Shown here: in pieces, positions 42,892 to 46,292 of the stretch
Layout of the letters: each line of letters opens with the position of its first letter
Numbering within the stretch: position 1 is the stretch's first letter
Notes under the pieces: generated by a model
The model's input: only the letters and a program-made list of their open reading frames with translations
What the model was told of the DNA's origin: nothing
Databases searched by the model: none
NCBI GenBank assembly: GCA_016840135.1
Contig: JAEOSX010000094.1
Location: forward strand, 1 to 57,203
Length of the DNA: 57,203 nt
DNA from: Candidatus Hermodarchaeota archaeon
GTDB lineage: Archaea > Asgardarchaeota > Hermodarchaeia > Hermodarchaeales > Hermodarchaeaceae
Reading direction: 5' to 3'
Made by a program: the position numbers and the translations under genes

Positions 42892-43164
42892 TTGCTGCTC
42901 AGAATAGGCGCGGTGTTACATTTCTCTGCGCAAGGTCACATCATTGCGCGGGTAAAACAGGCTATCCGCCTAGGCACACGACTATTCACCACTAAATCGA
43001 AACTAGTTGGAACTATAATAGACATTTTCGGACCTATTAATCGACCATTTGCATCTATAAAACCAGAGTCTCAAATCACTGTAGATTCATTGCCTCCAGG
43101 GTCGGCTCTTTTCCAGGCGAAGGCCAAGTCCAGAGGAGGCAGACATAAACGACGAAAGAAGTAA
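42892..43164 (+). CDS. gar1: H/ACA RNP component Gar1
   Basis: [19 protein letters not shown]...[25 protein letters not shown], basic tail; TTG start. Confidence 0.88.
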
Positions 43165-43211
43165 GTGCTCCCACAATATCGCTTTGCCCAGACTGCGGCG
43201 ATGACAAGTTA

Positions 43212-44078
43212 GTGAAGGATTATCAGAGAGCTGAAATCGTCTGTAGAAGCTGCGGGTTAGTGCTAACAGACCGCATCATCGATGAGGGCCCAGAATGGAG
43301 GGCCTTTGACCAAGAGCAACGAGAGAAACGCGCAAGAGTTGGTGCCCCCTTGACATACACAATACATGACAAGGGATTATCGACGATGATTGACTGGCGA
43401 AATAGAGATAGTTACGGAAAGGATCTTGCTCCGAAACGCCGCGCACAAATTTACAGGCTTCGTAAATGGCAGCGTAGAATCCGCGTCTCTGACGCAACAG
43501 AAAGGAATCTTGCATATGCTTTATCCGAACTCGATCGTATGGCATCAAGTCTAGGACTCCCGCGAACGGTTCGTGAAATCGCAGCGATGCTTTATCGGCG
43601 TGCAGTAGAACAGCGACTCATTCGCGGTCGATCAATCGAAGGTGTTGCAGCAGCAGCCCTTTACGCTTCTTGCCGACAGTCTAGGATTCCTCGAACACTA
43701 GATGAAGTTGCAGAGGTATCACGAGTCGGCAAGAAAGAGATTGGTCGGAGCTATCGGTTTATTGCTCGCGAACTTCAGCTATCAATCCCTCCTACCTCTC
43801 CTATCGACTATGTTCCACGTTTCGTTAGCGAATTAAAACTCGTCGGTAGGGTTCAAGCACATGCTGTCAAAATCCTAAAGATGGCAGCAACCAAAGGTCT
43901 CACTAGCGGACGAGGCCCAACAGGGGTCGCAGCTGCCGCCATATACGTAGCTAGCGTGTTAGAAAATTCGCGTCGTACTCAACGCGAAGTTGCAGCAGTA
44001 GCGAGGGTAACAGAGGTCACTGTTCGAAATCGATACAAAGAATTAGTAGAGAAACTAGAACTCGAAGTCCCGCTCTAA
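43212..44078 (+). CDS. tfb: Transcription initiation factor B (TFB); zinc ribbon extends upstream to about 43185 in the same frame
   Basis: C-terminal cyclin repeats, [22 protein letters not shown]; in-frame upstream codons encode CPDCGDDKL. Confidence 0.95.
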
Positions 44079-44178
44079 CTTGATACTTGGGGCGATTCAT
44101 CGCCCCTGCTCCTCTTTTTTCTTAATTCGTGGTTCTGAAAGGTTTTTTATTAAGCGATGATACCTTTCAAGTAGTTAA

Positions 44179-44520
44179 ATGGAATCTCGTGCAATCGCTC
44201 TTCTAAAAGAGGCAGGGAGCAAGGGCCTCCTCCTCTCGGAGCTAATTCAAGAGTTAGAGAAAAGCGCCTCCAATGTTCAAAATGTAATTGAATCTTTGAA
44301 GAGGCAGGGGTACGTCAAGGAAGTTGAAGACCAACATAATGGCGCGTCAACGACTAGACTTATCTGGCAGGGCAGGGAAAGCTCCAAATGGAATACGTTC
44401 AACGGGTGTCCATGTTTTTCTTGCAAAGAGATTGAACAATGCGGTGAGGGACAGCCAATTACTCCTTGGTATTGCGGAAAATTAAACGTGTGGTTAGCAG
44501 AGCGCCTTAATCCTACTTAG
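44179..44520 (+). CDS. Winged-helix + Fe-S protein resembling TFE-beta / RPC39 (RPC6)
   Basis: wHTH then GCPCFSCKEIEQCGEGQPITPWYCGKLNVWLAE, similar in layout to the RPC39 C-terminal cysteine cluster. Confidence 0.72.
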   Translation: MESRAIALLKEAGSKGLLLSELIQELEKSASNVQNVIESLKRQGYVKEVEDQHNGASTTRLIWQGRESSKWNTFNGCPCFSCKEIEQCGEGQPITPWYCGKLNVWLAERLNPT

Positions 44521-45115
44521 CTGGTGCTCGGAAATATTTAGCAATCAGATAAATCTCTGGGCTTCTCGGAAGTGAAGCACTTGGTTTGAAGAGTCTGATA
44601 AAATCAAAACGATTCTTCGTCCATGTTACCAATTCTTGAGTGTACTCTGATTGGAATAGCTTTGTCACAAAGTGTCCGCGTTTAGATAATACTTCAAGAG
44701 CTATAGCTAGGCTTTTCTTTCCTAGATACGCTTGACGTTCACGGTCAAGTGTCTTGTTCCCAGTCAACTTGGGCGAACAATCGCTTAAGACTAGATTTGC
44801 CAGCCCACCTAGTTGCTCACGGATTCGAAAAGCGAGATCGGGTGCGTCGATTGAACTCTGAATAATCTTTACATCATCTACTGGTTTCAAAGGGGCGATG
44901 TCCACCCCAATTATATCCAAATCAGTTTCCTTGCAGTGTTGAGTAACAACTTGTAGCCAGCTACCTGGAGCACAACAAAGATCGACAATTCGTTTCGCAC
45001 CATGCAGTATTTTAAATCGTTTCTCTATCTCAAGGAGCTTGTAAGCTGCCCGTGCACGATAACCCATAGCTCTGGCTTTTCTGCGATACGGCTCTCGCTT
45101 GTCCCATCTAGACAT
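44513..45115 (-). CDS. FtsJ/RlmE-family rRNA (or Trm7-like) 2'-O-methyltransferase
   Basis: RRKARAMGYRARAAYKLLEIEKRF, VDLCCAPGSWLQV, LVLSDCSPKLTGN. Confidence 0.93.
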   Translation of the reverse strand: MSRWDKREPYRRKARAMGYRARAAYKLLEIEKRFKILHGAKRIVDLCCAPGSWLQVVTQHCKETDLDIIGVDIAPLKPVDDVKIIQSSIDAPDLAFRIREQLGGLANLVLSDCSPKLTGNKTLDRERQAYLGKKSLAIALEVLSKRGHFVTKLFQSEYTQELVTWTKNRFDFIRLFKPSASLPRSPEIYLIAKYFRAPAK

Positions 45116-46292
45116 GATTTTGCTCTCCTTTTATGATTTGCAGAAGTGTCTGATGGAGAACTTGTACAGAAGCGCTGGTACGTATTGCATATGGTGAGAA
45201 ATGAGTACGAGAACAGAATTGCCCTTTAGCACGAAGAATTCTTACGACATCATTAAACGAAGGTATCGGTATTTCTAACTTATCACAAAGCTTGTGAAGA
45301 TCAAAATACGTGGGAGGACCGTCCAGTTCTTCAAGTAAGCATTTGATTAGGCGAGTCAACCGTCTTTTTGTCCCTAGAGGTTTATGTGTTATCTCTCTTA
45401 GAGTTTTATCAATGAAATCGCGGCTGCCAAGATGATTTGCCCAAAGAGGACCAGCCCGTTGAATTCTTGTTGAATTACAGTTAGGACATGAAGGAGAAAA
45501 GGACTGCAAAGTGTTGACCAACCTCCGGGAACCACATTCATCGCAATGAAAGAGGTGGCCTAGTTGAGAGATAGCAGTCCACGCTGCTTCGTCACCCTTA
45601 GAGGCAACGCAAAAAATGCGTACATAATGATCTACATAGATTGTGAGTAAAGGCTCAAGTCCAATGTTCTGAGATGCAGCCTCTCGGATTGCGCATCCTA
45701 GAAGTAATCTGATAGCAAGCTCGTGACCATATTCTGTTCTAGCTGGAGTTGCGGCATACCGTTTCATGCAGGCCTTGGGTCGGATTCCTACTAGAACAGG
45801 TAGATCAGTCGCCGTCAAACACAGAAGGCTACGTGGCTTCATTGCACCAATTGCAGCAGCAAAGAAAATACGGGGTGATCCAAAAGGGTCGATGTCGATA
45901 ACATCGAATCTTTGCGTTCTACGATGGTGTTGAGTCAGGAGAAGATTTGCATCGCTGTGATGAACCTCAATAATTTCTGAAACTTCGTTTAATTCAGAAT
46001 TTCTTTTGATTAGTTCAACAGCAATTGGGTTACTATCACCTGCAACAATGCATTTTATCCCATCAACCTCCTTTGCGATACGAACAGCACGAACACCAGT
46101 TCCTGCGAGAGGTGTACATACTCTTGCATTTGTTATTCCATAGTGGGTTAGGAAGGCTTGGATTACGCTGATAGTGACGTCTCTGTTTAATTCAGATTTT
46201 GGGTTATAAAAAACCGACATGCCTGTTGTTGGAACCTTCTGAATCGGTGGGCTGAGAAAGGTCACTTGCCCCTCTTTGTATTTCTCGAACAC
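45108..46292 (-). CDS. trm1: tRNA (guanine26-N2)-dimethyltransferase Trm1
   Basis: VFYNPKSELNRDVTISVIQAFL, DVIDIDPFGSPRIFFAAAIGAMKPRSLLCLTATDLPVLVG, C-terminal zinc ribbon. Confidence 0.94.
   Translation of the reverse strand: MFEKYKEGQVTFLSPPIQKVPTTGMSVFYNPKSELNRDVTISVIQAFLTHYGITNARVCTPLAGTGVRAVRIAKEVDGIKCIVAGDSNPIAVELIKRNSELNEVSEIIEVHHSDANLLLTQHHRRTQRFDVIDIDPFGSPRIFFAAAIGAMKPRSLLCLTATDLPVLVGIRPKACMKRYAATPARTEYGHELAIRLLLGCAIREAASQNIGLEPLLTIYVDHYVRIFCVASKGDEAAWTAISQLGHLFHCDECGSRRLVNTLQSFSPSCPNCNSTRIQRAGPLWANHLGSRDFIDKTLREITHKPLGTKRRLTRLIKCLLEELDGPPTYFDLHKLCDKLEIPIPSFNDVVRILRAKGQFCSRTHFSPYAIRTSASVQVLHQTLLQIIKGEQNHV

Follow-up and report, generated by a model that had tools for sequence, protein, structure and literature searches.

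The open reading frame at 44179-44520 is almost certainly tfeB, the gene for the beta subunit of archaeal transcription factor E (TFE-beta). The window, by which we mean the whole 57,203-nucleotide stretch analyzed here, is contig C40 of a 1.8-Mb Hermodarchaeia (Asgard) MAG that is ~81% complete. The biology is that expected of an ordinary, well-conserved core gene, and neither tfeB nor its neighbourhood is new. The features on which our analysis draws are as follows.

42892-43164, forward strand: gar1, Gar1/Naf1-type H/ACA RNP protein (PF04410, 2.6e-9)
43149-44078, forward strand: tfb, a TFB with zinc ribbon and two TFIIB repeats; candidate ACG start at 43149
44089-44125, forward strand: terminator-like hairpin (GGGGCGA..TCGCCCC) and following T-rich stretch in the tfb-tfeB gap
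44137-44150, forward strand: BRE/TATA-like element GAAAGGTTTTTTAT, ending 27-28 nt before the tfeB ATG
44179-44520, forward strand: tfeB, TFE-beta/RPC39-like protein (ATG start, 113 aa plus stop); winged helix at about residues 2-63, C-terminal 4Fe-4S-type domain at about 73-110
44407-44475, forward strand: cysteine cluster codons, C77 and C79-x2-C82-x5-C88-x10-C99, spaced as in Saccharolobus solfataricus (Sso) TFE-beta
44513-45115, reverse strand: FtsJ/RlmE-like RNA 2'-O-methyltransferase (PF01728, 6e-46)
45108-46292, reverse strand: trm1, tRNA N2,N2-dimethylguanosine methyltransferase (PF02005, 3.5e-102)

Homology of the encoded protein

Compared with an 82%-identical orthologue, tfeB differs at 16, 6, and 33 codon positions of the first, second, and third kind, and this third-position bias, together with orthologues found phylum-wide, marks it as a real gene. 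We find the family in 188 of 228 Asgard genomes, including 42 of the 45 good ones and 59 of 62 genera, with one copy per Hermodarchaeota genome. The closest public relatives come from Hermodarchaeota MAGs (82, 79, and ~50% identity), followed by those of Jord-, Baldr-, Frey-, Borr-, and Thorarchaeota; these relatives place the genome in the Hermodarchaeota lineage of the Asgards. The sequence-only reading of this DNA took TFE-beta to be known from Sulfolobales, which is too narrow: its known range covers all Cren- and Thaumarchaeota, several Euryarchaeota, and Asgards, and a 2018 review states its presence in the ASGARD superphylum (PMC7289017).

A family profile built from 24 Asgard relatives was searched against all PDB sequences, and its top match is human RPC6 (RPC39; E 1.9e-9). 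The match falls into two colinear parts, with the winged helix (profile positions 2-59) aligned to RPC6 residues 92-149 and the cysteine domain to residues 280-315; the RPC39 winged-helix entry 2dk5 is also matched (E 2.8e-4). These are the same two regions that the TFE-beta paper names as homologous in RPC39, the second of three winged-helix domains and the four-cysteine C-terminus (PMC4495717). The TFE-beta/RPC39-like identity proposed from the letters of the DNA is thus borne out, as is the placement of one winged helix ahead of the cluster. The likeness of the C-terminus (...GCPCFSCKEIEQCGEGQPITPWYCGKLNVWLAERLNPT, as quoted at that stage) to the RPC39/RPC6 cysteine cluster holds as well: a C-terminal profile of 41 positions, run against 177,635 distinct PDB sequences with E up to 10, returns human RPC6 as its single match (E 4.8e-4), which argues that the resemblance is not due to chance. 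The same reading would have been overturned by a better HMM match to an unrelated winged-helix Fe-S regulator family; in our comparison none surpasses RPC6, the Fe-S regulator RsrR (Rrf2 family) reaches only E ~0.3, and MarR structures matched by the family profile are essentially confined to the winged helix.

Searched alone against Pfam, the window protein gives MarR_2 as its best match (2e-6), just over the cut-off, with RNA_pol_Rpc34 at 13.9 bits, under the 28.4-bit cut-off, and B-block TFIIIC also below cut-off; an NCBIfam scan gave nothing above threshold, only sub-threshold wHTH matches. Across the family, RNA_pol_Rpc34 matches 21 of 24 members (E up to 1, best 2.1e-6), and among 14 control genomes it matches only that of Sulfolobus acidocaldarius. 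Archaeal RPC34 proteins were described in 2009 as bearing the same MarR resemblance, and hence as misannotated (PMC2770514). The AlphaFold2 model of the window protein has a mean pLDDT of 71.7, with ~83-92 in the winged helix and ~42-64 in the C-terminal region, where the Fe-S part is unreliable. Foldseek retrieves many kinds of winged helix with this model, with TFIIIC at the top and that of RPC39 in seventh place, and the TFIIIC, MarR, and RPC39 winged helices all fall at E 1e-3 to 1e-2. Since only the winged helix is modelled with confidence, this comparison is consistent with our assignment without discriminating between families.

Two observations made during these searches concern other proteins. 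In genomes grouped as family f3, short proteins (L077-L080, L082; frames of 81-89 aa) encoded elsewhere than at tfeB score above the Pfam Rpc34 cut-off through their winged-helix part only. A Magnetococcales match (L072) was rejected by eye because the sequence after its CPCFDC shows neither TFE-beta-like cluster spacing nor a winged helix.

The window protein has five cysteines, C77, C79, C82, C88, and C99. The last four are invariant across the 24 aligned relatives, C77 is nearly so, and C79-x2-C82-x5-C88-x10-C99 conforms to the TFE-beta pattern CxxC-x(3-5)-C-x(4-10)-C. In Saccharolobus TFE-beta the 4Fe-4S ligands are C92, C95, C101, and C112 (PMC4495717), and the resulting x2-x5-x10 spacing is identical to that of the window protein.

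Genomic context

The tfb gene ends at 44078, 100 bp upstream of tfeB and on the same strand; the convergent FtsJ/RlmE-like gene shares 8 bp with the 3' end of tfeB. Among 43 named Asgard loci, ~30 have gar1 upstream of tfeB in the same direction and ~30 have the FtsJ/RlmE-like gene downstream facing it, in most cases with trm1 next. Six Hermodarchaeota loci and three labelled Baldr or Odin have a TFB between gar1 and tfeB, most non-Hermodarchaeota Asgard loci run from gar1 to tfeB without an intervening tfb, and in a Helarchaeote a TFB adjoins tfeB in a different arrangement. The crenarchaeal RPC34 gene was described in 2009 as a neighbour of a TFB and of RNA-modification genes, and in S. solfataricus gar1 lies upstream of it (PMC2770514). 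The gar1/tfb/RNA-modification neighbourhood, a supporting rather than a defining mark of TFE-beta, is thus seen in the window and in ~30 Asgard loci.

The GC-rich hairpin and its T-rich stretch are kept at all seven Hermodarchaeota loci examined, each followed by GAAAG[GA][CT]TTTTTAT ending 27-28 nt before the tfeB ATG. These signals suggest that tfb transcription would stop at the hairpin and that tfeB would be read from its own promoter as a leaderless or short-leader transcript. The sequence-only reading had proposed a basal-transcription module with tfb. The adjacency on which that proposal was built stands; a co-transcribed module is unsupported, given the hairpin, the separate TATA-like promoter, and the lack of an intervening tfb at most non-Hermodarchaeota loci.

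Function and alternatives

Family searches of the genome for TFE-alpha and TFB recover a TFE-alpha gene (L124 on contig G000:C35; PF02002, E 2.7e-24; 169 aa, with zinc ribbon) and six TFB genes in the 1.8-Mb MAG (contigs C161, C13, C40, C146, C188, and C100). The TFE-alpha gene adjoins an MBF1-like gene and a tRNA methyltransferase-like gene (names assigned by eye). In Saccharolobus, the Fe-S domain of TFE-beta binds TFE-alpha, and the heterodimer engages the clamp, makes the pre-initiation complex more stable, and increases DNA melting (PMC4495717). By analogy, Hermodarchaeota TFE-beta most likely pairs with TFE-alpha: its C-terminal 4Fe-4S domain would dock on TFE-alpha at the winged helix and C-terminal tail of the latter, and together the two would stabilize the pre-initiation complex and favour melting of the DNA. 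Cluster type, heterodimerization, and the effect on open complexes are each predicted here from the biochemistry of the Saccharolobus proteins (PMC4495717).

Among the closest known systems is S. solfataricus TFE-beta (Sso0944, PMC4495717). Both proteins consist of one winged helix and a C-terminal Cx2Cx5Cx10C motif, and both genomes encode TFE-alpha and share the gar1/tfb neighbourhood. Unlike the Sso protein, which has at least 125 aa and is basic (pI 9.2), the Hermodarchaeota protein has 113 aa and is acidic (pI 5.9), carries the extra cysteine C77, and is encoded by a gene split from tfb by a promoter-like element and a terminator-like hairpin. The acidity may weaken electrostatic contact with DNA. 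Haloferax volcanii TFE-beta (PMC5861453) is likewise acidic and combines a winged helix with a C-terminal TFE-alpha-binding domain, but in haloarchaea the Fe-S cysteines retained in Hermodarchaeota have been lost. Human RPC39 resembles the window protein in sequence over its second winged helix and its C-terminal cysteine cluster, in the same order. RPC39 proper is a stable Pol III subunit with three winged helices and an insert before the cluster; the 113-aa window protein has a single winged helix.

Alternatively, TFE-beta may serve chiefly non-coding RNA genes in partnership with the adjacent one of the six TFB paralogues, as in the Pol III-like specialization proposed in 2009 (PMC2770514). 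This alternative draws on the RPC39 homology, on the position of tfeB beside one TFB and tRNA/rRNA modification genes, and on the multiplicity of TFB genes. We nevertheless consider it quite unlikely, as Saccharolobus TFE-beta is a general factor that stimulated all promoters tested (PMC4495717), the Hermodarchaeota genomes carry a single tfeB, and that gene has its own promoter-like element and lacks an adjacent tfb in most other Asgard loci. It is also very improbable that the four cysteines hold zinc in place of a 4Fe-4S cluster, a reading that would leave the partner role unchanged. Sequence by itself does not decide the metal, and the original 2009 account called the cysteine domain of archaeal RPC34 a Zn finger (PMC2770514); native MS and EPR have since provided evidence for 4Fe-4S in both Sso TFE-beta and human RPC39 (PMC4495717), and the Hermodarchaeota pattern is the same as that of Sso. 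We therefore predict a 4Fe-4S cluster on C79, C82, C88, and C99 from the match to the Sso pattern. The MarR_2 score and the shared winged-helix fold might recall a regulator of the MarR/TrmB type with few target genes and a tail that senses through Fe-S or zinc, but this reading is largely refuted and scarcely tenable: sequence similarity to MarR regulators is weak and nearly always ends with the winged helix where family membership would have it span the whole protein, the cysteine domain is matched by RPC6 and not by MarR or RsrR, and near-universal presence in the phylum, in synteny with core RNA-processing genes, differs from the distribution of MarR proteins and ill suits a niche regulator.

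The distribution of the family has a bearing on the history of the factor. Eukaryotes have their closest known relatives in the Asgards, and TFE-alpha/beta is regarded as the ancestral form of the eukaryotic factors TFIIE and RPC62/39. The presence of the family in nearly all good Asgard genomes and a gene order like that of Crenarchaeota support TFE-beta as ancestral in Asgards.

N-terminal additions in other families and the start of tfb

Some Asgard homologues of TFE-beta carry additional N-terminal sequence. Members of family f2 (L115, L116, and L117) have a zinc-finger-like motif, CxYCxxxFxYLSRHKC (CQYCGKSFVYLSRHKC in one member), ahead of the winged helix and Fe-S domain, with weak Pfam support (zf-CHCC, E 0.0035 in L117); a literature search for a Lokiarchaeal zinc-finger TFE-beta found nothing on point. 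Those of family f18 (L112, L113, and L114) have a long Lys/Ser-rich N-terminal tail, which recalls the low-complexity sequence reported to extend the N-terminus of thaumarchaeal proteins (PMC2770514). One may imagine that Asgard TFE-beta diversified by clade into minimal single-winged-helix (Hermodarchaeota), Lys-rich tailed, and N-terminal zinc-finger-like forms, and that the Hermodarchaeota form, possibly preferring the adjacent TFB at non-coding RNA genes, was a forerunner of the part that RPC39 plays in Pol III; we regard this scenario as a whole as quite unlikely.

The start of the neighbouring tfb is unusual in a separate respect. Its start region (43146-43214) contains no in-frame ATG, GTG, or TTG before the zinc ribbon in the window and in two congeners, where the frame opens at an ACG directly after a stop. 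Four loci from a second genus likewise have none of these codons near the tfb start, and one of them (L033) has a single distant GTG, so that a nearby canonical start is missing in seven genomes in all (the window and L031-L036). A search of the literature turned up no relevant report of a non-canonical start for tfb. The zinc ribbon nonetheless looks translated, with 12 synonymous against 2 non-synonymous codon changes between the window and L031. Translation may begin at the ACG at 43149, which a GGAGG precedes by 9 nt, or reach tfb through a -1 frameshift out of gar1.
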